A stretch of 34,893 bases of DNA from assembly GCA_013151235.1 (NCBI GenBank), contig JAADIO010000001.1:1-34893 (forward strand). The letters are read 5' to 3'. The stretch is from Deltaproteobacteria bacterium (GTDB lineage: Bacteria > CG2-30-53-67). Of this stretch, positions 17,329 to 31,629 are shown piece after piece. A model generated the notes under the pieces. That model had not been told where the DNA came from. It saw only the letters and a list, made by a program, of their open reading frames with translations, and did not search any database. Numbering within the stretch: position 1 is the stretch's first letter; every line of letters begins with the position of its first letter. A program made the translations under genes and the position numbers.

Positions 17329-18489
17329 TCAGTTTTTCGTCGTACCGATGTGTACTTCATCCCCGCTCCCGTGAATCACCATCCTGGTCCTCCGCATCAG
17401 GACCGGTTGGTAAAGATAATTGACATAGGCACTGACCCGCAGTTCTTCCTTCGGCGCCACGAGAAATTTGAACTCTACCATCCGTCTTTCGCCCGGCAAC
17501 AGACGGTTGTCCTCCAGGACCCGCCCCGGTTTCAGAAAAAATCCGGCATCATCGGCAAATGCTTCTCCGCTTTCCTGCTCCACCAACCGTTTGCGAAAGA
17601 CCTTCGAGCGGGTAAGGCCCCTGCCAACGGCCCCCGTTTGCACTTCACAGATCAGCACCAGGCTCCGCGAGGGCATCCCGGTCGGGACGCAGTGCCCACA
17701 TCCGGTATTGAGGATCCGGACCCGGACGGTCAGATGGCCGTCTACCCGATCCACCCGGCTTATTCGCACACGTAATTCTCCCGTAGACTCCTGCAGATTC
17801 CCGGCCTCACCGGAACCTGTATCCGCCGAATTTCTTTTGCCGGGCCGGACCATCCGATGATCCCGTGGTGTCCCTTTTGAGGAGGCCATGTGACATCCCT
17901 GGCAAGAGGTGTTGTTCCCGGCAAAAGGACCGGCCTTCCACTCCGAATACGTTCCGAGGAGAGTCACTCCGTTTTCGGCGGTATATTCATGGCAGGCGGC
18001 ACAGAACCCGGATTGCCGGAGTGCATCGGGAATCCGCCGGTCATGAAAGGAGCGCCCCCGCAGCCAGTCGATCCCCTTGAGCATCTCCCGGTTGATAAAA
18101 AAAGGATTCTCAGGGTCCCCGAGATCGATACCGCTCACGGAATGACAGAAGTCGCAAGTCACTCCCTCATTCGTAATGGGAAGATGTTTCGAATAATCAC
18201 GCGTCAACAGAGTCGTCGGGGCATGACACCGCATGCAAAGTTTCTTCGCCTTCCCGCCGGAAGCAAGACAGGCCTGGGCGAGAGAGGTCTCAAAGATCGG
18301 GTCATCAGACGAATGTGCATGCATCGACTCTTTCCACATGGCATAGATCTGCGGGTGACATTTACCGCAGGCCTTGGCCGGGATGAATGCGTCCCGGTAA
18401 AGAGGATTTACGGGAAGCATCTTTTCCCCGGTACACTTTTCCACCGAGACGAGGAAGAAAAGGAAAAAGAAGATCGAAAGCCGGGTCAT
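17329..18489 (-). CDS. Periplasmic pentaheme c-type cytochrome with a C-terminal beta-rich domain
   Basis: A 386-residue exported protein with five CxxCH heme sites: CGKCH, CMRCH, CDFCH, CAACH and CQGCH, all in the first 220 residues. The pattern resembles the cytochrome c554-like family. The C-terminal 150 residues lack heme motifs and look beta-rich; a CGHC in this part lacks the following His. I chose ATG 18489 because it begins a clear signal peptide (MTRLSIFFFLFFLVSV); the frame extends to 18585, but a sigma-54 promoter at 18592-18607 would start transcription near 18581. It is first in a minus-strand cluster with a small membrane protein and a cNMP-domain protein. Redox partner unknown. 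Confidence 0.88.
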   Translation of the reverse strand: MTRLSIFFFLFFLVSVEKCTGEKMLPVNPLYRDAFIPAKACGKCHPQIYAMWKESMHAHSSDDPIFETSLAQACLASGGKAKKLCMRCHAPTTLLTRDYSKHLPITNEGVTCDFCHSVSGIDLGDPENPFFINREMLKGIDWLRGRSFHDRRIPDALRQSGFCAACHEYTAENGVTLLGTYSEWKAGPFAGNNTSCQGCHMASSKGTPRDHRMVRPGKRNSADTGSGEAGNLQESTGELRVRISRVDRVDGHLTVRVRILNTGCGHCVPTGMPSRSLVLICEVQTGAVGRGLTRSKVFRKRLVEQESGEAFADDAGFFLKPGRVLEDNRLLPGERRMVEFKFLVAPKEELRVSAYVNYLYQPVLMRRTRMVIHGSGDEVHIGTTKN

Positions 18490-18591
18490 GGAGATCACCG
18501 CCGCCTCGTTCCTGCCGGCGTCATGAAATATCCGTCGGTATCCACGGGCCCGCCCACCGGCAAGCCGCCCGCCAACTGCCTCCATAGGTAA

Positions 18592-18993: not shown

Positions 18994-19497
18994 ATGATGG
19001 ACAAAATATGGATGGTCAACGCCCCGGTTTTCTTCTCCCTCTCCTTCCTGCTTCTCTTCTCTGCGAAGGGATACGCCGTAGAACAGCCGATTCAGTTCAA
19101 TCATTACAAGCACACTCAGGAACTGGAACTGGAATGCGTGATGTGTCACATCGGTGTTCGAAACCGGGTTCGGGCGACGCTCCCTAGTGTCGAGATCTGC
19201 ATCGGTTGTCATGAGGAAGCCGTGACCGACAGTCCCGAGGAGGAAAAAATCCGGGAATACGATTCACGAGGGGAAGAAATCCCCTGGCAGCGGCTCTTCC
19301 GGGTTCCCCCCCACGTTTTCTTTTCGCATCGCCGCCATGTTACGGTTGCCGGACTCGACTGCACGAAATGTCACGGAGATATGGCCATGCGCAAAACACC
19401 CCCTCGAAAAGCACCGATGCGAATTTCCATGAGCTATTGCCTCTCCTGTCACCGGCAGTTGAAGGCCAGTACGGATTGCGTTTCCTGCCATCGTTGA
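18994..19497 (+). CDS. Pentaheme c-type cytochrome subunit (QrcA/ActA-like)
   Basis: A 167-residue exported cytochrome with a signal peptide ending near KGYA (about residue 28) and five CxxCH motifs: CVMCH, CIGCH, CTKCH, CLSCH and CVSCH. Additional His residues (FNHYKHT, FFSHRRH) are positioned like distal ligands of cytochrome c7/c3-type hemes. AAGGAG precedes ATG 18994; a second ATG follows at once. It is the first gene of a five-gene operon with MopB, ferredoxin, NrfD and a four-heme cytochrome. By analogy with QrcA or ActA it should pass electrons between soluble cytochromes and the membrane complex. QrcA has six hemes and ActA five; this protein has five. Confidence 0.9.
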   Translation: MMDKIWMVNAPVFFSLSFLLLFSAKGYAVEQPIQFNHYKHTQELELECVMCHIGVRNRVRATLPSVEICIGCHEEAVTDSPEEEKIREYDSRGEEIPWQRLFRVPPHVFFSHRRHVTVAGLDCTKCHGDMAMRKTPPRKAPMRISMSYCLSCHRQLKASTDCVSCHR

Positions 19498-19518
19498 TCA
19501 AGCGAGGGAAGAATAATT

Positions 19519-22002
19519 ATGAAAAGAAGAAAATTTATCAAGCTTTTAGGCGGTTCCACCACCTTCGCCCTGGCGTATGGATACGGTCTGTTTCCTCCCC
19601 CGAAAGGATTCGGGAAGGCGGAAGCACTCAAGATAGGGGAAGAGGATCTGTCTCTGCGTCCCCCTGAAGAGAAATGGGTTCCCACCGTCTGCCGACAATG
19701 TCAGGGCGGTTGCGGCATCCTGGTCAGGGTCATCGGCAACCGGGCCGTAAAGATCGACGGCAATCCCCTCCACCCGATCAACCGGGGAAGGCTCTGCGCC
19801 CGGGGGCAGTCCGGTCTGCAGTTCCTCTATGACCCGGATCGGATTCGGGGTCCCCTCATCCGGAAGGGTGAACGGGGAGAAGACCGATGGGAATCCGTCT
19901 CCTGGGACAAGGCACTGACAACCCTGCAGAAAAAATTAAAAATTTTGAGGAACAAGAAACGGCCGGAGTCTCTCGTGATGCTTTCCGGCATTCGGCAGGG
20001 ACTGGCAGGAAAAGCAACTTCCCGTTTCATGGAAGCTTACGGTTCTCCCAACCTGATTACCAGCCGGCCGGATCTCTCCAGGGGTTTCATCCCGGCGGTT
20101 GAACTCATGCAGGGGGCCGGGGCCGGCATCACCTATGATATCGAAAATGCAAACTACATCCTCTCCTTCAACAGCGGGCTCCTCGAAGATCATTGGTCTC
20201 CCGTGCAGATTTACCAGGCCTATGGAAAATTCCGAAGAGAACGAAAGGGGGTTCGCGGCAAACTGGTCCAGGTGGAGCCAAGACTCTCCGTCACCGCGGC
20301 CAAGGCCGATCAGTGGATCCCGGTCAAGCCCGGAACGGAAGGGGTTCTGGCCATGGGGATCGCGTCCGTCCTGATCATCGAAAGACGCTACGATGAATCC
20401 TTTCTCCGGAACAGGACCTTCGGCTTTGAGGACTGGGCGGATTCGGAAGGAACGATCCATCCGGGATTCAAAACCCTCGTGATCCAGGAATATCCACTGG
20501 ATCAGGTAGAAAAAACAACGGGGGTTCCCAGGGATACGATCGTCCGGATCGCCCGTGAATTTGCCGATCACGGTCCGGCGCTCGCCATCGGGAACGACGC
20601 CTTCGGCGTGGGCAATCCGGGGCTTTATAACCGAATGGCGATCCACGCCCTGAATGCCCTGGCCGGCAACATCCAGAAGGACGGCGGCATCCGTTCCAAT
20701 GCGAAGCAACCGGATCTCTCCTTGCCTCCACAGACCCCGGACGCCGTCGCCCGGCAGGGGCTTTCAAAACCGAGGATCGACGGCGCCGGTACCGGTCGTG
20801 ATTCCCTGACCGCCGATCTTCCGGAAAATATCCCGGATCGAATCCTGGAGCATACACCCTACCCCGTTGAGATTCTCCTTCTTCATCACGCAAACGCCCT
20901 CTACGACAGCACGGAACCGGACAAACTACAGGCCGCTCTTAAAGAGGTCCCCTTCATCGCGAGCTTCTCTTCCTTCCTGGATGAGACCACCCGATACGCC
21001 GATCTGATCCTGCCCGACTCCATCTACCTGGAAAAATGGGATCTGGATGCGACCTACACGCTCAAGGGGAATCCGGTGGTCAACCTGAGCCGCCCCGTCC
21101 TTCCACCCGTATTCAACACGCGCGACACCGTCGAAGTTCTTGCGGCTCTCTCCAGGAAGCTGGGTGGGAGTCCCGCCGAGGCCTTTCCCGCCTCCCATCC
21201 GGAAGGGATCATTCAGGCCGCCGTCAGGAAGCTGCATCGTACCGGTCAGGGCGAACCTTTCGGAGCCCCCTTGGAAGAACTCTGGACAAAATTACTGGAA
21301 CAGAGTGGATGGAAGGTCCGGAACAGGGAGACTTTCGACAACTTCTGGTCAAAACTTCGGGAACGGGGCGGCTGGTGGGACCCCGTCTACTATCCCTATG
21401 AATGGCGCCGGGTCTTCAGTACGCCCTCCGGCCGTTTTGAATTCTTCAGTCTGACGGTCAAGAAGTATCTCGAAGGCCTCGGGGCCACGGAAAGGGACCT
21501 TGCCCTGAATGCAATGCCGCAGACAGCAAACATGAAACGTGCCGATGCCGGCGCGCTACCCCACGGAAATACCGAAAAACCGGGGAGAAACGAAGAACGC
21601 TACCCTTTCGAGATCCATCCCTATGTCATCCCGATCCTCAGCCATCTGCATCATACCAATGAACCCTGGCTGCAGGACATTACCGGCTTCCATCTCTATC
21701 AGAGCTGGCATACCTGGGTGGAAATCAACCCGAAGGATGCGCACGAACAGGGCATCGGGAACGGGGAGTGGGTCACCGTAGAGTCTTCCCGGGGAAAGAT
21801 CCGGGCCCGGGCACGCCTCTTTGAAGGAGTAATGCCCCACGTCATCAATCTCCCCGTGGGCCTGGGCCACGAAGCAGGCGGACGGTGGACGGCGGGGATC
21901 GGAGAAAATGTCCCCCGGCTCCTGCAAACAAAACGGGAACCGGTAACGGGAAAAACTCGATACGCCCGGTCCCGTGCACGGCTGATCCGTAACCCGACCT
22001 GA
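19519..22002 (+). CDS. Molybdopterin-oxidoreductase-like (MopB) subunit of a Qrc/ACIII-like complex
   Basis: An 827-residue protein with a Tat signal (MKRRKFIKLLGG, twin Arg at 3-4), so it is exported folded to the periplasm. A [4Fe-4S] site is formed by C58, C61, C65 and C93. The MopB fold continues with GSPN (175-178) and ends in a molybdopterin-binding domain with HTWVEINPKDAHEQGI and INLPVGLGH. In catalytic relatives a Cys, Ser or Asp that binds Mo lies about eight residues after GSPN. Here that position reads SRPDLSRG, with Leu at the expected place, so a Mo-free structural role as in QrcB or ActB is plausible. An Asp one residue earlier leaves some doubt. It starts 21 bp after the cytochrome gene. 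Confidence 0.9.
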   Translation: MKRRKFIKLLGGSTTFALAYGYGLFPPPKGFGKAEALKIGEEDLSLRPPEEKWVPTVCRQCQGGCGILVRVIGNRAVKIDGNPLHPINRGRLCARGQSGLQFLYDPDRIRGPLIRKGERGEDRWESVSWDKALTTLQKKLKILRNKKRPESLVMLSGIRQGLAGKATSRFMEAYGSPNLITSRPDLSRGFIPAVELMQGAGAGITYDIENANYILSFNSGLLEDHWSPVQIYQAYGKFRRERKGVRGKLVQVEPRLSVTAAKADQWIPVKPGTEGVLAMGIASVLIIERRYDESFLRNRTFGFEDWADSEGTIHPGFKTLVIQEYPLDQVEKTTGVPRDTIVRIAREFADHGPALAIGNDAFGVGNPGLYNRMAIHALNALAGNIQKDGGIRSNAKQPDLSLPPQTPDAVARQGLSKPRIDGAGTGRDSLTADLPENIPDRILEHTPYPVEILLLHHANALYDSTEPDKLQAALKEVPFIASFSSFLDETTRYADLILPDSIYLEKWDLDATYTLKGNPVVNLSRPVLPPVFNTRDTVEVLAALSRKLGGSPAEAFPASHPEGIIQAAVRKLHRTGQGEPFGAPLEELWTKLLEQSGWKVRNRETFDNFWSKLRERGGWWDPVYYPYEWRRVFSTPSGRFEFFSLTVKKYLEGLGATERDLALNAMPQTANMKRADAGALPHGNTEKPGRNEERYPFEIHPYVIPILSHLHHTNEPWLQDITGFHLYQSWHTWVEINPKDAHEQGIGNGEWVTVESSRGKIRARARLFEGVMPHVINLPVGLGHEAGGRWTAGIGENVPRLLQTKREPVTGKTRYARSRARLIRNPT

Positions 22003-22033
22003 AAGAACAGTGTAATGGAGGAAGGAGAAGAAG

Positions 22034-22717
22034 ATGCCGAAATGGGGCATGGTCATTGACCTGGACAAATGTACGGCCTGTCAGGCCTGTGTCGTCGCCT
22101 GTCAGGCGGAGAATAATATCCCGAATGCAAACCCGGAAACCGCTGCCAAAGGACGCAACATCCACTGGATGGAGATGATCCCCTTTATCGAGGGAGAATT
22201 TCCCCACACCAAAATGCGGCTCCTCCCCCTCCCCTGCATGCACTGTGAGAACGCCCCCTGCACCAAGGTCTGCCCGGTCGGAGCCACCCAGATCAGTTCG
22301 GAAGGTATTGTAGGACAGATTTACCCCCGGTGCATCGGATGCCGCTACTGCACCACCGCCTGCCCTTATACCGTAAAATCTTTCAACTGGTTCAACCCGA
22401 CCTGGCCGAAAGGGATGGAGCGGTATCTCAACCCCGATGTCTCGGTTCGTTACGATGGTGTTGTGGAGAAATGTACCTTCTGCTCCCATCGTCTGCAGAA
22501 GGCCCGGGATCAGGCCCGATTTGAGGGAAGAGAACTGGGGCCGGATGATTACATTCCCGCCTGTGTACAGACCTGCCCGGCCGAGGCGATGTATTTCGGT
22601 GATCTCGACAACCCCAAATCAGTCGTCTCCATTCTTGCAAGAAGTAAACGTTCTTTCCGCCTGATGGAAGACTTGGGGACCCGTCCAAAAGTCATCTATT
22701 TAAGCGAAGGAGTCTGA
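22034..22717 (+). CDS. Periplasmic ferredoxin subunit with four [4Fe-4S] clusters
   Basis: A 227-residue iron-sulfur protein of the PsrB/QrcC/NrfC type. Four cysteine groups are seen: CTACQACVVAC, CMHCENAPCTKVC, CIGCRYCTTAC, and CTFC together with CVQTC. It has no signal peptide of its own; such subunits are usually exported with the Tat-bearing MopB partner. A long purine-rich GGAGGAAGGAG site precedes the ATG, which begins 31 bp after mopB. Its role would be to wire electrons between the MopB subunit, the cytochromes and the NrfD-type membrane subunit. Confidence 0.93.
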   Translation: MPKWGMVIDLDKCTACQACVVACQAENNIPNANPETAAKGRNIHWMEMIPFIEGEFPHTKMRLLPLPCMHCENAPCTKVCPVGATQISSEGIVGQIYPRCIGCRYCTTACPYTVKSFNWFNPTWPKGMERYLNPDVSVRYDGVVEKCTFCSHRLQKARDQARFEGRELGPDDYIPACVQTCPAEAMYFGDLDNPKSVVSILARSKRSFRLMEDLGTRPKVIYLSEGV

Positions 22718-22718
22718 A

Positions 22719-24113
22719 ATGGATCTGGCAAAGGTCTTGGAACAGGATGAAGAGATCCTCCTGAAACCGATTCAGGAATCCCACAGGAACTTTTACATTA
22801 CGGTTGTGCTCCTCTCCGCCGTCGTGGCCTGGTCCTTGGTCGCCTATTTCCACCAGTTGCGCAACGGCCTGGGCGTCACGGGGTTGAACCGGCCTGTCTA
22901 CTGGGGGTTCTATATCACGAACTTTGTTTTCTTTATCGGGATCAGCCATGCAGGGACCCTGATCTCCGCCATTCTCCGGATTGCACGGGCGGAGTGGCGC
23001 CGTGCGATCACACGTTCCGCCGAGGTAATTACCGTCATGGTCATCTTCTTCGGCGTCGCCAGCATTCTGATGGACCTGGGTCGCCCCGACCGGGTCCTCT
23101 ACATCATCAAGTTCGGACGTTTTCAATCCCCTCTTCTCTGGGACGTCACCAGTATCACGATCTATCTGACCGGCAGCACCGTTTATCTCTATCTTCCCCT
23201 GATCCCCGACATCGCCCTGATGCGGGACAAAGTGAAAAAACGGAAATGGTTTTACTCCGTCCTTGCCCTCGGCTGGAGGGGGACACCCAAGCAGTGGCAC
23301 CGCCTGGAGAAGGCCATTGCCGTTATGGCTATTCTCGTCATTCCCGTTGCCGTCTCCGTCCATACCGTGGTCTCCTACGTCTTTGGGATGACCGTCCAGC
23401 CGATGTGGCATTCCGCGATCTTCGGCCCTTACTTCGTCGTCGGTGCAATCTATTCCGGCATTGCCGCTCTGATTGTCGCCATGGCCTTAATCCGATGGGT
23501 CTATCACCTGGAGAACTATCTCAAAGATATTCACTTCCAGAATCTGGGAATTCTCCTTTTCGTCATGACCCTGCTCTGGACTTATTTCACCTTCTGCGAG
23601 TATCTGACAACCTTCTATGGAGCCGAACCTGCACACATGCAGGTCTTCTGGTCGAAGTTCACCGGGGAATACCGGCATGAGTTCTGGGGAATGGTTGTTT
23701 GCTGTTTCGTGATCCCCGTCATCTTCCTGAGCAACCGGAAGATGCGGACCATGACGGGAATGGTCTTCGCCTCCCTCGCGATTACCGTCGGAATGTGGCT
23801 GGAACGGTTCATTATCGTCGTGCCGACCCTGGCCAACCCCCGACTCCCCTACGAACGGGGAATCTACCACCCCAGTTGGGTCGAACTCTCTCTGCTCGCC
23901 GGCTGTTTTGCGGCCTTTATTCTCTGCTATGTACTCTTTACCAAGTTCTTTCCCATCGTCTCCGTCTGGGAAATTCAGGAAGGACGCAAGCATGCCGTAT
24001 CGGAAGTGGCGGCCCGTGTCAGGACCTATCTTCCGGGCAACCCGACCCCGGACAAAACGGATGCCGGCACCCCCGCCATCCCCAAGGTGGAACCCTTGAT
24101 CGGGGATTCATGA
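22719..24113 (+). CDS. NrfD/PsrC-type quinone-interacting membrane subunit (QrcD/ActC-like)
   Basis: A 464-residue integral membrane protein with about ten hydrophobic segments and short polar ends. SHAGTLISAILRI and GRPDRVLYIIKFGRFQ followed by SPLLWDV are close to the ActC/QrcD form of the NrfD family, which binds menaquinol on the periplasmic side. The ATG is 1 bp after the ferredoxin stop and has AAGGAG upstream, so the two are tightly coupled. Its own stop overlaps an ATG at 24110. In this operon it would link the quinone pool with the iron-sulfur and heme chain. Whether it conserves energy by proton movement cannot be read from the sequence. Confidence 0.92.
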   Translation: MDLAKVLEQDEEILLKPIQESHRNFYITVVLLSAVVAWSLVAYFHQLRNGLGVTGLNRPVYWGFYITNFVFFIGISHAGTLISAILRIARAEWRRAITRSAEVITVMVIFFGVASILMDLGRPDRVLYIIKFGRFQSPLLWDVTSITIYLTGSTVYLYLPLIPDIALMRDKVKKRKWFYSVLALGWRGTPKQWHRLEKAIAVMAILVIPVAVSVHTVVSYVFGMTVQPMWHSAIFGPYFVVGAIYSGIAALIVAMALIRWVYHLENYLKDIHFQNLGILLFVMTLLWTYFTFCEYLTTFYGAEPAHMQVFWSKFTGEYRHEFWGMVVCCFVIPVIFLSNRKMRTMTGMVFASLAITVGMWLERFIIVVPTLANPRLPYERGIYHPSWVELSLLAGCFAAFILCYVLFTKFFPIVSVWEIQEGRKHAVSEVAARVRTYLPGNPTPDKTDAGTPAIPKVEPLIGDS

Positions 24114-24145
24114 AGCATACGCTGATCAACAAGGAGGTGAGCGTT

Positions 24146-25390
24146 ATGAAACAAAAAGCAACGACTCAAACGCAAAGGAACATTCGATCAAGCTTGTCCT
24201 TTCTCCTTCTGTTTCTCTTCTGTGGAGAATTCTTTTTCATCCCCACAGTCGTAAACGCCGTTGAACGGGATGTCTCCTTCGTCTTCCCTGATGATGCCGG
24301 CCGCGGCTGGAAACTGTTCCTTTCCAAAAACTGTATTCACTGCCATGCCATCTGGGGACAGGGAGACGGGACCATCGGTCCCGACTTGGGACGGATCCAT
24401 ATCAGCCTCCTCTCGGAGGGGCAGCTCGCCACGAATATCGTGAACCACCTTCCCACCATGTGGGAAAAGATGCAGGAAGAAAGTATCCGTTACGAAAAGA
24501 TCAATAAAAAGGAAATGGGGAATCTTTTCTCTTTCCTCTACTTTATCCGCTATGTTGATGAACCGGGCGACCCGGTACAGGGAAAAGCGCTGCTCACGGC
24601 CAGGAATTGCACTACCTGCCACTCCATCCTCGGGAAAGGCGGATCGATCGGACCGGACCTGACGCGATGGGGAGTCTATATCAACCCGATCGTCTGGGCA
24701 CAGAAAATGTGGGTTCACGCCCCCCGAATGGAAGAAGAGATGCGAAAGAAGAATCTGCCCTGGCCGATTCTGAATGCCAAAGACATGGTCAACCTTGTCG
24801 CCTATATCCAAAGCATCAGCGGCAAGATCCAGGAAGAATATCACCTGGAGCCGGGCGCCCCCGTGGAAGGAAGAAAATTATTCAAGACAAAGGCCTGCAT
24901 CGAGTGCCACGCCATCGAGGGGAAAGGAAAACATGTGGGACCCGATTTCGGGAAGATCAAATTTCCCCGGACCCTGGCCGGCATGGCGGCCCTCATGTGG
25001 AACCATTCTCCGGAGATGATGAAAATGATGAAGATCCGCCGGATCCCCCGGAAGGATATCCGTCCCCAGGAAATGGCCGACATCATTGCCTATCTTTTTG
25101 CCGTCCGATATTTTGACCCCCCGGGGAATCCTTCCCGCGGCGAAAAGGTCTTTGAAGAAAAAAACTGCGTCATCTGCCATACCGTCGGCGCCGGTGGACG
25201 GGCCGGAACGATCGGTCCCAATTTGGCCCGGTTACCGAAGATCTCGGTGATCAGTCTGACACAGTCCATTTGGAATCACGGTCCGCAGATGATGAAGAAG
25301 ATGCGGGATTACGGATTTTCCTGGCCGGTACTCCACGGTACGGACATCAACGACATCGTTGCTTATCTGCAGTCGGTACACGTAAGATAG
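24146..25390 (+). CDS. Tetraheme cytochrome built of four tandem monoheme domains
   Basis: A 414-residue exported cytochrome. After a signal peptide ending PTVVNA (about residue 37) come four homologous units of about 90 residues with heme sites CIHCH (63), CTTCH (155), CIECH (251) and CVICH (341). Each is followed by a G(P)D/N-L/F motif, a WxH-PxM segment and a Met-rich helix, consistent with His/Met-ligated class I hemes. I chose ATG 24146 because of the strong AAGGAGGT at 24131-24138; ATG 24110 overlaps the nrfD stop but adds 12 non-signal residues. It is last in the operon and resembles the mono/diheme ActE role, multiplied. A strong terminator follows. Confidence 0.88.
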   Translation: MKQKATTQTQRNIRSSLSFLLLFLFCGEFFFIPTVVNAVERDVSFVFPDDAGRGWKLFLSKNCIHCHAIWGQGDGTIGPDLGRIHISLLSEGQLATNIVNHLPTMWEKMQEESIRYEKINKKEMGNLFSFLYFIRYVDEPGDPVQGKALLTARNCTTCHSILGKGGSIGPDLTRWGVYINPIVWAQKMWVHAPRMEEEMRKKNLPWPILNAKDMVNLVAYIQSISGKIQEEYHLEPGAPVEGRKLFKTKACIECHAIEGKGKHVGPDFGKIKFPRTLAGMAALMWNHSPEMMKMMKIRRIPRKDIRPQEMADIIAYLFAVRYFDPPGNPSRGEKVFEEKNCVICHTVGAGGRAGTIGPNLARLPKISVISLTQSIWNHGPQMMKKMRDYGFSWPVLHGTDINDIVAYLQSVHVR

Positions 25391-25474: not shown

Positions 25475-28126
25475 TCACCTCGCTTGATGACAGACGTTGC
25501 ATTCCGCACTGACCGTATAGCGGTAAGGAGACCCCCAGGTGACCGATGTCTGGTTCTGATGGCAGGCAACGTTGGTGCAGGTTTTCGTAGCAGGATCGAA
25601 GGAAGCGGTACTTAGATCCTGGGGGGTCTTCAGGGTCACCGGATCCGGCGTAAACACCACGTCTTTTGTGCCGTTGACATGCTTGGCCTTGTTGAATATA
25701 TCGACATTCTCGAAGGTCGTCTCCCCCTGTGCATCCTGGGTCCATGGAGCCTCATCCCGTACCGTATCGTAATGACAGGTCCGACACTGAAGTGGGCCGA
25801 ATCCCATATTCCAGGCATGAAGGCTGACGTCACCGTTTTGATCACGCCATCCGTGACTGTCACCGGCACCGGCGGAATCGACGGACGCATCATTGATGAT
25901 CGGGAAACCGTGACAGCCGTTGCAGCCGAACTGATCCACCCCCCATTGCGGGGTGCGGTAACGGCGGGTCTGAACAACGAGACTCTGCCAGGTCGGATCG
26001 TAGATCAATGGATAGATGATATTCCCGTCAACAACGGTCGGTTCCGGCACGGCGTCCGTCGTCGTCGTCACGGTTTCGCTGTGACAATAGACATTGCTGC
26101 AGGTCCCTTTCGTGTAGGTCAGGGGGATCCGGCCTCCATCATCGACAAAGACCTGAGTCCCCGGCGTGTAGGTCGCAGTCTTCGGGTTCTTCGCCTTGAG
26201 AGAGCCCGCCGGTGCATTCGGGCTATAAAGTTCAATCTCCGCCGAACCTCCGCCACTGTTTGCGACACCGTCCATATGTTTCAGGATATCCATGGGGTGG
26301 CAGTTCCCGCAGTTCATCAGGTAGACCGATGACTGGGAGATCACATCCTGTGCGATCTTCGTGCTTCCGTAAACCGCCTGGTCCACGCTCCCCCCGAAAT
26401 GAATCAGGTGGGTCCCCGTCTTCGGCGGAACCTCGTGGCAGGTGCCGCACTGAGGCTTCATTCCCTTGTCATGGGGATGACAGGCCATACAGTTCGCCCC
26501 GTCGTTATGCCCGACATAGTTCCCGTTAGAATCGAGGTCACCCGGCGCCTGTCCGTCATTGCGGTGATGATTGGTCCGGGTATGACAGATCTCGCAGATG
26601 TTCTCATCATGGGGCGCCCCGTCGGCGAAGGAGTCGGTCCCCGATGAAGCAGTGAGCGTGACCGTTCCCGTGAGGGTTTGGCCCGTCACGGTATTGTCAT
26701 AGGAAATGTTCCGCCGGAGCAGTTTCCCGTAGGAGGTGCCGAAAGCCCGGTTCTGCTCCTGGGTATGGGGATCGTGACAGGTCACACAATTCTTTGTGCC
26801 CATGTCCCAATTACCATACTTCGTCCCCACGACCTTCGAGGAATGGGTCTTGACAACCGGAGCAGAGCCAAAACCGTAGGGGAAAGCGTCGGGATAGGCC
26901 GCCTTCATAACGCCATTCAACGGGTCGGTGTCGTCCGGGTCGGAATGGCACCGCTGACACTTGTAACGCTGGTCATTGAAGAAATTGTTCCGGTCGTGGC
27001 ACTTCCCGCAGAGGAGTGCCGCATTATCGGAACGGATCGTGTCGTCGGGATTCTTCAACGGGGCGATATGAGGTGGATCGTACGGATGACAGGAGATCCC
27101 GTTCCGGTCGGGGGTATTGCACCCGACCTTGGCGATGCCGCCCAGAAGATCCGCTCCGTGGCACTTCGTACAATCCTGCGCGTCGGCAAGATAGCTCGGG
27201 CCGTGACTCCCCCCCTTGTCGGCAACATTGACCCATCCTTCCGGATGTCCGGTCTTGACCTCGGGTTTGAATCCTCCGTCATGGGTATGGCAATCGGTAC
27301 AGGGCCGGTCGGCGCCATGTTCAATCGGTTTACCATCGATGTCCAGGTCACCCGGCCCGCTCCCATCGTTGCGATGATGAATCGTCCGGGTATGACAAAC
27401 CTCGCAGATCGATTTCCCCGACGGGACCGACTCCCCCGTTAACGGTGTATCGGTCAGATCGTTCACCTGGACCTCACCGCCGACGGTTTCGCCGGTCACA
27501 TTGTTTGTATAGGTGATATCCTCGCGGAGGAGTTTCCCGAAATGCGTTCCCTTTGCCCGGTCCTGTTCCTGGGAATGGGGGTTATGACAGGTCACACAGT
27601 CGATGTGCCAGTTGCCATATTCCGTCCCGACATTCTCCGAAGAGTGACTCTCCACGACCGGGGCCGTACCGAACCCGTAAGGAAACGGTTCAGGATAGGC
27701 TTCCTTCATGACCCCGTTCAAGGGATCGCTGTGATCAGACGGATCGGAATGGCATCGCTGACACTTGAACCGCTGCTGATTGAAGAAGTCCTTCAGGTCA
27801 TGGCACTTCCCGCAGAGGAGCCTCGCATTGTCGGAACGGACCGTACCGTCGGAATTGATCAGGGTCTCAAGATGAGGCGGGTCGTTGGGATGGCAGGTAA
27901 TCCCGTTGCGGCTCGCCGTACTGCAGCTCACCTTGGCAAGCCCCCCCGTCAGTGCATCCCCGTGACATTTCGTGCATTGATCCGGGTCCTTTTCATAATG
28001 CTTTCCATGGACCTGCACCCAGTTCGAAGGGTGATCCGCACCTTCGGGACTGAAGACGCTCCCCGAATTCGGGCTACTACAGGCGGACATAAAAAGGAAC
28101 AAACAGAGGAGAGCGAGTCGCTTCAT
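25475..28126 (-). CDS. Outer-surface multiheme lipoprotein cytochrome with 17 CxxCH sites (up to 21 heme-like motifs)
   Basis: An 883-residue lipoprotein with a short signal peptide and lipobox MSAC (Cys16). I count 17 CxxCH motifs, two CxxxxCH motifs (CSNVYCH, CTNVACH) of the Geobacter CxxxxCH-CxxCH type, and two C-x9-CH motifs (CSTASRNGITCH, CNTPDRNGISCH). The first 560 residues are a tandem duplication of about 268 residues, each half with six CxxCH sites in the same order. The last third has five CxxCH and both CxxxxCH sites. ATG 28126 overlaps the upstream stop as ATGA; ATG 28135 adds three residues. It is last in the operon barrel, pentaheme lipoprotein, multiheme lipoprotein, so it is probably the outer-face cytochrome of a porin-cytochrome conduit for extracellular electron acceptors. 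Confidence 0.9.
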   Translation of the reverse strand: MKRLALLCLFLFMSACSSPNSGSVFSPEGADHPSNWVQVHGKHYEKDPDQCTKCHGDALTGGLAKVSCSTASRNGITCHPNDPPHLETLINSDGTVRSDNARLLCGKCHDLKDFFNQQRFKCQRCHSDPSDHSDPLNGVMKEAYPEPFPYGFGTAPVVESHSSENVGTEYGNWHIDCVTCHNPHSQEQDRAKGTHFGKLLREDITYTNNVTGETVGGEVQVNDLTDTPLTGESVPSGKSICEVCHTRTIHHRNDGSGPGDLDIDGKPIEHGADRPCTDCHTHDGGFKPEVKTGHPEGWVNVADKGGSHGPSYLADAQDCTKCHGADLLGGIAKVGCNTPDRNGISCHPYDPPHIAPLKNPDDTIRSDNAALLCGKCHDRNNFFNDQRYKCQRCHSDPDDTDPLNGVMKAAYPDAFPYGFGSAPVVKTHSSKVVGTKYGNWDMGTKNCVTCHDPHTQEQNRAFGTSYGKLLRRNISYDNTVTGQTLTGTVTLTASSGTDSFADGAPHDENICEICHTRTNHHRNDGQAPGDLDSNGNYVGHNDGANCMACHPHDKGMKPQCGTCHEVPPKTGTHLIHFGGSVDQAVYGSTKIAQDVISQSSVYLMNCGNCHPMDILKHMDGVANSGGGSAEIELYSPNAPAGSLKAKNPKTATYTPGTQVFVDDGGRIPLTYTKGTCSNVYCHSETVTTTTDAVPEPTVVDGNIIYPLIYDPTWQSLVVQTRRYRTPQWGVDQFGCNGCHGFPIINDASVDSAGAGDSHGWRDQNGDVSLHAWNMGFGPLQCRTCHYDTVRDEAPWTQDAQGETTFENVDIFNKAKHVNGTKDVVFTPDPVTLKTPQDLSTASFDPATKTCTNVACHQNQTSVTWGSPYRYTVSAECNVCHQAR
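26480..27976 (-). repeat. Tandem duplication inside the multiheme cytochrome gene
   Basis: Two copies (about 27281-27976 and 26480-27172) encode the same series CTKCH, C-x9-CH, CGKCH, CQRCH, CVTCH, CEVCH/CEICH, CTDCH/CMACH. Blocks such as HRNDG-PGDLD and YGFG-APVV recur at a period of about 268 residues. The copies are diverged at many positions, so the duplication is old. Confidence 0.8.
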
Positions 28127-28563
28127 TTGTGGCATGCCTTACACCTCTCGTTGTTGTTGCGGCCATGACATTTGAGACAGGGCGCCGGGTTAATCCGGCC
28201 GTCGATCCGGTGCTGTGTCAGGTAATCCCCCCGATGAGGGAGGAAACGATTCGGTTTATCCTTGAACTTGTCGCTCGGTTTGATTTCTTCCTTGTTGGCA
28301 TGGCAATCCTCGCAGAAGGATTCCTTGTGACAAAGGTCGCAGATCCGCTTCTGCTGCACGGCGTAGTATTTATGCCGCATGTCCCAATCGGAGGTGTGAC
28401 TGAAAGAAGCCCGAAAATCCTCATGACATTCGCTGCACATCGGCGGTTGCGTAAACTGTATCGGGTGCTCCCTGAGGATACTGTCCATGGTTGCACAGGC
28501 ATAAAGTCCTCCCGAAAAGAGGACCATAAAAATGAGCGTCAATTTCAGGGTCGTCCGGTTCAT
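28123..28563 (-). CDS. Pentaheme lipoprotein cytochrome of a porin-cytochrome conduit
   Basis: A 146-residue lipoprotein cytochrome. From ATG 28563 the signal peptide ends in the lipobox LYAC (Cys23). Five CxxCH sites follow: CSECH, CDLCH, CEDCH, CLKCH and CKACH. The frame extends to 28644, but ATG 28563 has AAAGGAG upstream, begins the signal peptide and overlaps the barrel-gene stop as ATGA. Its stop likewise overlaps the next start. The position between a beta-barrel and a large surface cytochrome suggests a periplasmic-side or barrel-plugging electron carrier, the role of OmaB/MtrA, although it is smaller and has fewer hemes than those. Confidence 0.87.
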   Translation of the reverse strand: MNRTTLKLTLIFMVLFSGGLYACATMDSILREHPIQFTQPPMCSECHEDFRASFSHTSDWDMRHKYYAVQQKRICDLCHKESFCEDCHANKEEIKPSDKFKDKPNRFLPHRGDYLTQHRIDGRINPAPCLKCHGRNNNERCKACHK

Positions 28564-29957
28564 TCCGTCTTCTCCTTTGTTGAATCGTCCGCCCCGGAAT
28601 CCGCGGAACCGTTGTCCTTTTTCCATGGGAAGGGAAACGTCCATGCCGGCAGATGAATATCCGACAATGCAAGCTTTGGCATTTTCATCTTCGGCATCTT
28701 CACCGGGGAGATATCGAAATTATGGATATACTTCACAAAGAGGCGGAGATCCGTGGAATAGGTCGGATTATCCCCATATTCGATATTCGCGGAGACGCGG
28801 CTGTTCTCTCCCAAGGCGTATCCACCGACGACCGAGAAAGAGAAAGCGTTGGAGTCACCGTTGATCGAGGCATCATAGTGGACGTTGAAAAGATCGAGGG
28901 TGACATCCGCCTTGTCGTATTTCTTGAAAGCGTAGACACGGAATTCATAGTAACGCCGGGCATCGCTCTGCCCGTCCATCCTGTAAAGAGAACAGCCGCC
29001 CCCCATTTCATCCTCGGACTGCCAAGTCAGTCCCGCCCCATAGTAGTTCGCATTGTCGGTCACACTGTAGTTGTAGTTTCGCAGGAGCGCAGTCAAAACC
29101 AGGTCGTCCCGGAGAGTGTATTCCCCCCGGAGACCGAGTTCCAGCATCTTCTCGTCGGGATCGAGGACACCGAGGCCCATATCGAAGACCCCGGTGGTAT
29201 GGGTGTCGACATCGGCAAAATAGTTCTTGTAATCGACGTCATCGAACTCCCCGATAAGCCGGAGTTCATCGAGAGGCACATAAGTGACCGTGTAGGAATG
29301 CTCCATCCATCCCGTGGTCTCCCCGTTGTAGGTCGACCGGCCGAAGACTTCAACTTTCTCCATGGGATGGACATGAAGATCGAGTCCCTCCTCCGTACGG
29401 AAATCGCTCCCGTTGTTTCGCTCCTTCAGGTAGGAAATTCCCACTTGGTACAGCCCCGGCTGCCGCCGGTAGACGCGGGCCCCGAATATCCTGTCGGAGC
29501 TTCGCGTATCGAAATCGGTCTCCACGGGGACCCCCCCGTAAGCCGCCGCGCCGAAACCGTGGAGAAAATCACTCCGAGCATAAAGACCGTCAACGCTTTC
29601 CGAAGCCACCCCTTCGTAGACCGGGACACGGCCAAAGTCAACAACGGTATTCGCCGTATCCCGGTGCAAGTCGACGTAGGCATACTGCAGGTCGAGATTC
29701 GCATTCCGCTCATCGAAACTCTTCTGATTGTTCAGGTCACGTCGGGCCCAGCCGCCGAAGTGGAAGGAATACTCATCTTTCGCGAAATCATTGAGGGAAA
29801 AGTCGAGATATTCAAAGAGAGGGAGATAGGTGTCACCATCGTAAGACTCCCGGCCCTGAAAATAGGTCCTGGAACTGCCGGTCATGTCAACGGCGAACAA
29901 CGGCGCCGGCACACAGAACAAAACCATCAGCAGCACGATCGTGCCTTCTTTGATCAT
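28560..29957 (-). CDS. Outer-membrane beta-barrel of a porin-cytochrome conduit
   Basis: A 465-residue exported protein with a signal peptide ending APLFA (residue 22). Most of the mature chain alternates polar and hydrophobic/aromatic residues, with repeated strand-turn patterns rich in Tyr, Asp, Asn and Gly, as in outer-membrane porins. Strands appear to end near residue 415. The rest is an unusual tail rich in Met, Pro and Lys (PVKMPKMKMPKLALSD) followed by a charged end. AAGGAGG precedes the ATG. The stop overlaps the start of the pentaheme lipoprotein gene (ATGA). No heme motif is present. By context it would hold the cytochrome wire across the outer membrane. I do not recognise it as a specific named porin. 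Confidence 0.8.
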   Translation of the reverse strand: MIKEGTIVLLMVLFCVPAPLFAVDMTGSSRTYFQGRESYDGDTYLPLFEYLDFSLNDFAKDEYSFHFGGWARRDLNNQKSFDERNANLDLQYAYVDLHRDTANTVVDFGRVPVYEGVASESVDGLYARSDFLHGFGAAAYGGVPVETDFDTRSSDRIFGARVYRRQPGLYQVGISYLKERNNGSDFRTEEGLDLHVHPMEKVEVFGRSTYNGETTGWMEHSYTVTYVPLDELRLIGEFDDVDYKNYFADVDTHTTGVFDMGLGVLDPDEKMLELGLRGEYTLRDDLVLTALLRNYNYSVTDNANYYGAGLTWQSEDEMGGGCSLYRMDGQSDARRYYEFRVYAFKKYDKADVTLDLFNVHYDASINGDSNAFSFSVVGGYALGENSRVSANIEYGDNPTYSTDLRLFVKYIHNFDISPVKMPKMKMPKLALSDIHLPAWTFPFPWKKDNGSADSGADDSTKEKTE

Positions 29958-30900: not shown

Positions 30901-31629
30901 TTAACCGAGTCTCGAAAGTGACGGGAAAAGGTTCATGATCCAGCCGGAGAGGATCCCGAGACGGTTGGTCAGGATCAGGACCCCGATGATCATCAGAAGC
31001 CCCCCCGACGCGATCTCCACAACCTTGAAGTGTCTTTTCACACGTTCAAAAAAGTTCAGGAACCAACCGGTGGCCAGGCCGGTCAACAGGAAAGGAAGGC
31101 CCAGCCCCAAGGCGTAGACCGACAGAAGCAGCACCCCGAAGGAAACACTCTCCTGCGTCCCCGCCATCGAGAGGATCCCCGCCAGGATCGGGCCGATACA
31201 GGGAGTCCATCCGAAGGCGAAGGCGATCCCCATGAGAAAGGCCTGGAGATAGGAACTTTTCCCGGTTTTCAGATGGAGCCGTTTTTCGTAATTCAAAAAC
31301 CCGATCCGGTAAATCCCCATCGTGTGAAGGCCGAACACAATGAGAAGAAGTCCGGCCGCCTTGCGCAGAAGCCCCATCTGACTGCCGATAAGGCGGCCGA
31401 AGAAGGTCGCCGATGCCCCCAGGAGGACAAAGACAAGGGAAAATCCGGCCACAAAGAGCAGCGAGCTTAAAAAGACACCGGAGAGAATCGGGGCGGATTT
31501 CTCCTTCTCCACTAGTTTCTCCACGGAGACGCCTGAGATAAAAGAGATGTAGGCCGGAACGAGAGGAAGGACGCAGGGGGAAACAAAGGAGAGCAACCCG
31601 CCCAAGAAAGCGAAGAGTACCTGATCCAC
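30901..31629 (-). CDS. ccdA: CcdA/DsbD-type thiol-disulfide membrane transporter
   Basis: A 242-residue inner-membrane protein with six predicted helices. The conserved cysteines are in SFVSPCVLPLVPAYISF (helix 1) and FGWTPCIGPILAGI (helix 4), the hallmark of CcdA/DsbD cores that carry reducing equivalents from cytoplasmic thioredoxin to the periplasm. In bacteria rich in c-type cytochromes this keeps apocytochrome CxxCH thiols reduced for heme attachment, which fits this neighbourhood. The start is GTG 31629 with AGGAGG 7 nt upstream. It follows the lipoprotein gene by 48 bp and probably belongs to the ubiD-lipoprotein-ccdA operon. Confidence 0.9.
   Translation of the reverse strand: MDQVLFAFLGGLLSFVSPCVLPLVPAYISFISGVSVEKLVEKEKSAPILSGVFLSSLLFVAGFSLVFVLLGASATFFGRLIGSQMGLLRKAAGLLLIVFGLHTMGIYRIGFLNYEKRLHLKTGKSSYLQAFLMGIAFAFGWTPCIGPILAGILSMAGTQESVSFGVLLLSVYALGLGLPFLLTGLATGWFLNFFERVKRHFKVVEIASGGLLMIIGVLILTNRLGILSGWIMNLFPSLSRLG

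Follow-up and report, generated by a model that had tools for sequence, protein, structure and literature searches.

A porin–cytochrome operon in candidate phylum CG2-30-53-67 with a pentaheme lipoprotein as its predicted minimal wire

In contig JAADIO010000001.1 of a Deltaproteobacteria bacterium (assembly GCA_013151235.1; the whole 34,893-nucleotide stretch is called the window below), three minus-strand genes follow one another in the order barrel, pentaheme cytochrome and multiheme lipoprotein. It is quite likely that this operon encodes a porin–cytochrome (Pcc) electron conduit with a minimal wire, in which the pentaheme would lie inside the barrel and pass electrons to the surface lipoprotein. 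What is new here is the mapping of this small protein onto a five-heme core of longer conduit cytochromes, a sister-genus barrel that continues into a class III tetraheme cytochrome c, and a variable CXnCH heme module in the surface lipoproteins.

The operon and its products

An earlier note on this DNA had described a barrel, a pentaheme lipoprotein and a lipoprotein with at least 17 CxxCH sites, their genes linked through two ATGA overlaps, all of which holds, the number of CxxCH motifs in the large cytochrome being exactly 17 (Table 1). Shuffled versions of that protein yield a mean of 0.12 such motifs and a maximum of 3; for the pentaheme, whose motifs are at residues 43, 75, 84, 129 and 141, the mean is 0.05 and the maximum 2. 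Both cytochromes carry a lipobox (GLYAC with Cys23 in the pentaheme, MSAC in the large protein). The length of the large cytochrome, 883 amino acids (aa), is counted from the ATG at 28126, while the open reading frame (ORF) list gives 886 aa from an upstream ATG. Its domains match Pfam Cytochrome_C7 (3.6e-24) and NCBIfam TIGR01904 (2.3e-12; cytochrome c7 / CxxxxCH-CxxCH). The pentaheme gave one match under the Pfam cut-off and none in NCBIfam at E 0.1, in a library that includes ExtKL (NF040886), and it is therefore not a member of the ExtKL family of ExtHIJKL; the porin matched nothing in Pfam or NCBIfam.

Table 1. Coordinates of the features discussed (window positions unless a locus is named)
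Feature	Position	Strand	Details
Porin/barrel gene	28560-29957	-	465 aa; from the ORF list
Pentaheme c-type cytochrome lipoprotein	28123-28563	-	146 aa; 5 CxxCH
Multiheme lipoprotein	25475-28126	-	883 aa; 17 CxxCH + 2 CX4CH + 2 CX9CH; proposed surface terminal
ATGA overlap, porin stop / pentaheme start	28560-28563	-	from the sequence
ATGA overlap, pentaheme stop / large cytochrome start	28123-28126	-	from the sequence
Disordered barrel tail, presumably periplasmic	28563-28700	-	residues 420-465, pLDDT <50
Internal duplication, large cytochrome	26402-28006	-	residues 41-305 vs 309-575, 59% identical
CX9CH motif 1	27890-27925	-	residues 68-79; sits where related modules have CxxCH
CX9CH motif 2	27086-27121	-	residues 336-347
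Barrel–cytochrome c fusion via long linker	L018 8230-10512		
Barrel–cytochrome c fusion via long linker	L019 6394-8703		

These features are those of Pcc clusters. The barrel gene adjoins a multiheme cytochrome gene, barrel and middle cytochrome are homologous to their omb-oma-omc-type counterparts, and the large cytochrome, with its lipobox and 17 CxxCH motifs, has the marks of an outer-membrane multiheme cytochrome, its surface position being predicted. The five hemes of the middle cytochrome fall inside the range of 5 to 14 reported for Pcc periplasmic cytochromes, for which 5 + 6 hemes have been argued to be sufficient (PMC4245776). That this is a Geobacter-type porin–cytochrome conduit, as first proposed in the earlier note, is well supported by the layout, by the kinship of both barrel and middle cytochrome with ombB/omaB-type pairs and by conservation across phyla.

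Judging from their sequences, the three proteins together probably pass electrons across the outer membrane. The barrel would sit in that membrane, and the pentaheme, a putative shortened OmaB-like conduit cytochrome with only the central five-heme block, would lie inside it, its N-terminus periplasmic and, in this lineage, lipid-anchored; in MtrAB, the N-terminus of MtrA is inward (PMC7198977). Electrons would then move between a separate periplasmic cytochrome, the pentaheme and the many-heme surface lipoprotein, either outward, for the respiration of minerals, humics or partner cells, or inward, as uptake.

Distribution and pairing of the three genes

A scan of genomes returned 37 loci. The pentaheme is present in 28, truncated by a contig end in one, while the other nine (L061-L069) show a partial match at 21-33% identity and are excluded from every pentaheme count. 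The 28 loci come from Nitrospirae metagenome-assembled genomes (MAGs), Desulfuromonadales MAGs, Geomonas isolates, Geobacteraceae and one Desulfobacterales MAG. A barrel gene stands directly before the pentaheme in 27 of the 28 and a multiheme gene directly after it in 27, so that the full trio is present in 26; the two exceptions, L047 with its upstream and L035 with its downstream sequence missing, are contig ends. Synteny, which the earlier note had named as a check, is kept across phyla.

At E 1e-8 or better, the pentaheme is matched in 23 of 386 genomes. Eight genomes in the search set belong to the window's own phylum. In the family of Geomonas, 40 of 47 genomes match at E 1e-3, and the matches sort into three tiers. 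One comprises pentahemes like the window's, one a second kind of pentaheme, ~157 aa long, and one proteins with eight to nine hemes and ~231-260 aa. The last are encoded with a barrel on one side and a multiheme lipoprotein with 8-12 CxxCH on the other, as in ombB-omaB-omcB, and their OmaB label rests on layout, size and heme number. The Geomonas genomes examined hold two to three copies of the pentaheme family (L050, L093-L097), one pair in G386 being on the same strand ~8 kb apart. Around the Geomonas locus L050 are genes for 10-heme lipoproteins of ~1040 aa, recalling GM18_3465, for which a 2014 report suggested a 10-heme porin.

Barrel and pentaheme also vary together. Over the 19 loci in which all three genes are readable, their identity matrices correlate with r 0.89, as against 0.38 and 0.33 for porin and pentaheme, respectively, with the surface protein; shared ancestry feeds all three correlations. 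Sizes follow the same contrast, the surface proteins ranging from 203 to 883 aa and the pentahemes from 144 to 161 aa. A conserved pair beside a variable surface protein has been reported for Pcc clusters generally (PMC4245776).

The pentaheme as a five-heme core

All five CxxCH motifs and five further histidines (H33, H56, H64, H110 and H118) are invariant in 24 of 24 relatives, and these extra histidines would be enough for bis-histidine ligation of five hemes. Alignment A2 comprises the proteins of the window, of L018 and of L020, together with those of 21 of the 28 loci (L034, L035, L036, L051, L052, L053 and L057 were dropped as partial, identical or near-identical); set A4 comprises the window and 22 of the 28 (without L035, L036, L051, L052, L053 and L057).

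Nine oma-type proteins (~231-260 aa) reach 70-93 bits with a profile of 23 pentahemes, their shuffles at most 62 bits, and homology to the pentaheme has E values of 1e-21 to 1e-28 for all nine. The control consisted of 100 shuffles per protein with CxxCH and every histidine kept in place. Among 30 conduit cytochromes chosen from the fetched regions, the profile tops the best of the 100 shuffles in 29. It covers exactly hemes 1-5 in seven of the nine oma-type proteins and leaves over the three C-terminal hemes, the exceptions being L137, with a partial match, and L140b, with four hemes left at the C-terminus. In longer cytochromes of other phyla the matched block may be initial, internal or terminal: the numbers of hemes before, in and after it are 0/5/3 in L022, 5/5/3 in L025 (13 hemes), 4/6/3 in L023, 6/4/3 in L026, 2/5/0 in L027, 3/5/0 in L029 and 7/5/0 in L031. 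On these alignments, the pentaheme is the central five-heme block of conduit cytochromes with 7-14 hemes, its extensions absent. The earlier note had set the middle protein apart from OmaB, which is right as to size and wrong as to descent, given that it appears to be the five-heme core of that cytochrome. A PDB search with the pentaheme profile found no significant match (best E 0.051, NrfH).

Should the pentaheme be a surface cytochrome, like the proposed ExtC, it would stand beside the 17-heme protein, and the wire in the barrel would be a longer periplasmic cytochrome encoded elsewhere. ExtC and ExtF, the pentaheme lipoproteins of extABCD and extEFG (PMC6148476), do lie beside a barrel, ExtC being placed outside (PMC6148476, PMC8357294), and a lipobox, called with a PROSITE-like pattern, is present in 18 of 24 pentahemes. 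Six pentahemes, however, lack it (L040, L041, L043, L044, L045 and L060), as do all nine oma-type proteins, while three of ten other long cytochromes and 10 of 11 proteins of the second pentaheme kind have it. By this pattern, lipidation of the pentaheme is common yet dispensable, which would suit an anchored plug better than obligatory surface display; it was accordingly dropped as a defining feature of the pentaheme. The surface placement is quite unlikely for three further reasons: the homology to eight-heme OmaB-position and 7-14-heme conduit cytochromes lies mostly over the central hemes, the pentaheme directly follows the barrel and co-varies with it, and the window genome, searched with the pentaheme, gave one match and no second, longer homologue.

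Several points weigh against the pentaheme as a wire inside the barrel. Five hemes barely span the membrane, but could just cross it: the ten hemes of MtrA extend over 80 Å, for a membrane of about 40 Å (PMC7198977), and by proportion five would reach ~36 Å, an estimate only. The lipobox of the window's protein, taken together with ExtC placed outside and ExtF placed in or on the outer membrane, may by analogy suggest a different position. The long cytochrome of L032 fails to beat its own shuffles, and several long cytochromes (L028, L030 and L032) match the profile only partially. AlphaFold2 modeled the pentaheme alone poorly, with a predicted local distance difference test (pLDDT) value of 56 and a predicted template modeling (pTM) score of 0.26, and this model was not used. 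Lastly, both the pentaheme-in-barrel complex and its conduit activity are inferred from sequence.

The barrel and its fused relative

The barrel, itself an inference in the earlier note, gains support from an AlphaFold2 model with 22 strands over residues 23-416 (mean pLDDT 78.1, pTM 0.69), the strand region being mostly above 75 and much of it above 90. All 29 barrels examined from other Pcc-type clusters are matched by a barrel profile, at 17-479 bits (26-57 bits for nine of nine of the omb-oma-omc type), and neither of two unrelated window proteins used as controls is. TonB-dependent receptors came out on top when the model was compared with known structures in a second-look alignment (5fp2_B, Z 19.7, root-mean-square deviation 4.1, 337 residues aligned), closely followed by OprD-type porins and ushers. 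Barrels of TonB-dependent receptors are 22-stranded and enclose a plug of roughly 150 residues, to be compared with ~123 in the mature pentaheme. Neither MtrB nor another conduit porin is among the structural matches listed, which is uninformative on kinship, and a PDB sequence search with the porin gave no significant match.

It is highly improbable that the barrel is an ordinary porin, that the cytochromes work in the periplasm and that no single trans-membrane wire results. The Foldseek matches of the barrel model are indeed ordinary porins, ushers and receptors, and the localization of conduit proteins is deduced indirectly. Set against this are the co-conservation and close spacing of the genes in 26 of 28 loci, the homology of barrel and cytochrome to pairs in Pcc layout, and the lipobox on the large cytochrome.

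For the preferred conduit with its minimal wire, a possible source of electrons is visible in a sister genus (G003 and G005, loci L018 and L019), where the barrel gene runs on for ~340 residues, first as a linker and then as a tetraheme cytochrome c of class III (Pfam class III cytochrome c, E 9.5e-13, with a SPOR match under the cut-off), followed by the pentaheme gene. The window porin is 46% identical to residues 7-419 of the fusion. Since the C-terminus of the barrel is expected to be periplasmic, electrons may enter through the fused domain where the wire itself has no N-terminal hemes, and this natural fusion hints at a periplasmic electron partner. In G001, of the window's own genus, the fused domain occurs free-standing as a 127-aa frame with 54% identity; the window genome offers a free relative of the fused cytochrome c3 only at E 0.006, with no clear copy. 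A brief literature search found no publication on a barrel–cytochrome c3 fusion, which does not imply its absence from print. Sequences related to part of the fusion linker (~482-592) also occur in further long proteins encoded within this family of genomes.

The surface lipoprotein and its heme module

In the loci examined, the surface proteins contain a recurrent module, CxxCHG...GG...C(Xn)CH, found as 93 distinct strings, some of them from close relatives and hence not independent. CH follows in 92 of the 93, compared with 6.9% of shuffled tails. The spacer n is most often 2 (45 strings) or 9 (20), with 11 strings at 5, five each at 4 and 10, three at 12, and one each at 3, 11 and 15. The simplest reading of these sequences is that the module represents one heme site with a loop of variable length, in which case the window's large protein would total 21 hemes. 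Heme binding by CX>4CH motifs was left as an open question (PMC4245776), and a site alternating between CX2 and CX12CH bears on it.

Comparison with known conduits

The idea in the earlier note that the operon may represent a distinct conduit class finds no support as a novelty, since Pcc clusters with a five-heme periplasmic cytochrome had been described from Geobacter sp. M18 (GM18_3461-3463 and GM18_3467-3469) in 2014 (PMC4245776), and extABCD and extEFG encode pentaheme lipoproteins as well (PMC6148476). By their published description, on which the comparison was made, the M18 clusters likewise each unite a porin, a five-heme cytochrome and an outer-membrane cytochrome whose heme motifs are partly atypical. 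They differ in that the M18 surface cytochrome has one typical and five atypical motifs, as against 17 CxxCH and an internal duplication in the window, and the window's host belongs to a different phylum. With OmbB-OmaB-OmcB of G. sulfurreducens the operon shares its gene order, and its barrel and middle cytochrome are homologous to those of clusters in the same layout (L126, L127, L129, L133, L135, L137 and L140); unlike the eight-heme middle cytochrome there, the window's has five hemes, the three C-terminal ones being gone, and a lipobox. MtrCAB of Shewanella would work alike, with a barrel, a sheathed cytochrome and a surface cytochrome, although MtrB has 26 strands and MtrA 10 hemes (PMC7198977), compared with 22 predicted strands and five hemes here, so that the middle protein is no decaheme cytochrome.

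The extABCD and extEFG clusters resemble the operon in having a barrel beside a pentaheme lipoprotein, and extABCD also in having a further multiheme lipoprotein; the comparison with ExtC and ExtF is by description only. No gene for a dodecaheme periplasmic protein like ExtA belongs to the operon or was found among the window proteins examined on either side of it, and extA can lie elsewhere (PMC6148476). On electrodes, extB, extC and extD are each required and extA far less so (PMC8357294). The operon could be an orthologue of G. sulfurreducens extBCD whose extA partner is encoded elsewhere, a relationship that we regard as unlikely and that would be compatible in mechanism with the proposed conduit. 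The order barrel, pentaheme lipoprotein, multiheme lipoprotein is the same, and extBCD without extA is on record (PMC6148476); on the other side, in G394, G395 and G396, which hold omb-oma-omc-type clusters, nothing but the eight-heme protein is picked up by the pentaheme profile, a result that bears on extBCD only if extABCD is present there. No ext cluster was seen in 400 kb of G396, in two contigs of G394 and G395 or in two stretches of G395 contig 1, nor among the listed matches to a CxxCH codon pattern in G395. Neither an exact primer pattern for ExtC of G. sulfurreducens (from PMC8357294) nor a degenerate pattern translated from another primer for ExtC occurred in any of 48 genomes.

A broader proposal, put forward tentatively and as a conjecture more than a favored view, is that all Pcc-type conduit cytochromes share a five-heme membrane-crossing core, of which the window's protein would be the core alone. 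Entry and exit pieces would be optional and replaceable, the cytochrome c3 fused at the periplasmic end of the sister-genus barrel exemplifying a replaced entry piece; ExtC, and perhaps ExtF, would also be wires; and the loop of the surface heme site would have grown from two to between nine and twelve residues. If the pentaheme is the whole wire, it would be the shortest conduit cytochrome of its kind in this data set, of a handy size for structure determination and design, and it would single out the five hemes in the larger conduits that span the membrane.

Genomic setting and possible electron partners

Candidate phylum CG2-30-53-67 has been described from deep groundwater, with dsrAB genes present (PMC10591310), and the locus adds this uncultured, deep-subsurface lineage to the known range of the conduit type. 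About 0.9 kb upstream of the conduit operon, and on the same strand, lies a gene for a CcdA/DsbD-type transmembrane protein of cytochrome c biogenesis (30901-31629 (-); Pfam DsbD_TM 1.6e-19).

Convergent with the conduit is a Qrc-like operon (18994-25390 (+)) that encodes a pentaheme c7-type protein, a molybdopterin-type subunit without CxxCH, an FeS protein, NrfD and, last, a cytochrome that contains four heme domains of class I. The best NCBIfam matches of its first three proteins are QrcA (96 bits), QrcB (315) and QrcC (305.5), all under the curated cut-offs. This menaquinone complex could link the conduit to the quinone pool. An obligatory partnership was dropped, since G001 (L021), of the same genus, has other genes after the surface cytochrome. 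There, on the other strand from the conduit operon (L021 3184-5035 (-)), follow two cytochromes, each with six CxxCH and two c7-type triheme stretches, which are possible periplasmic partners. In the window itself, a 418-aa cytochrome with five CxxCH is encoded at 17329-18585 (-), and its C-terminal part (179-395) resembles the (seleno)protein ExtKL at 53.5 bits, the cut-off being 250.

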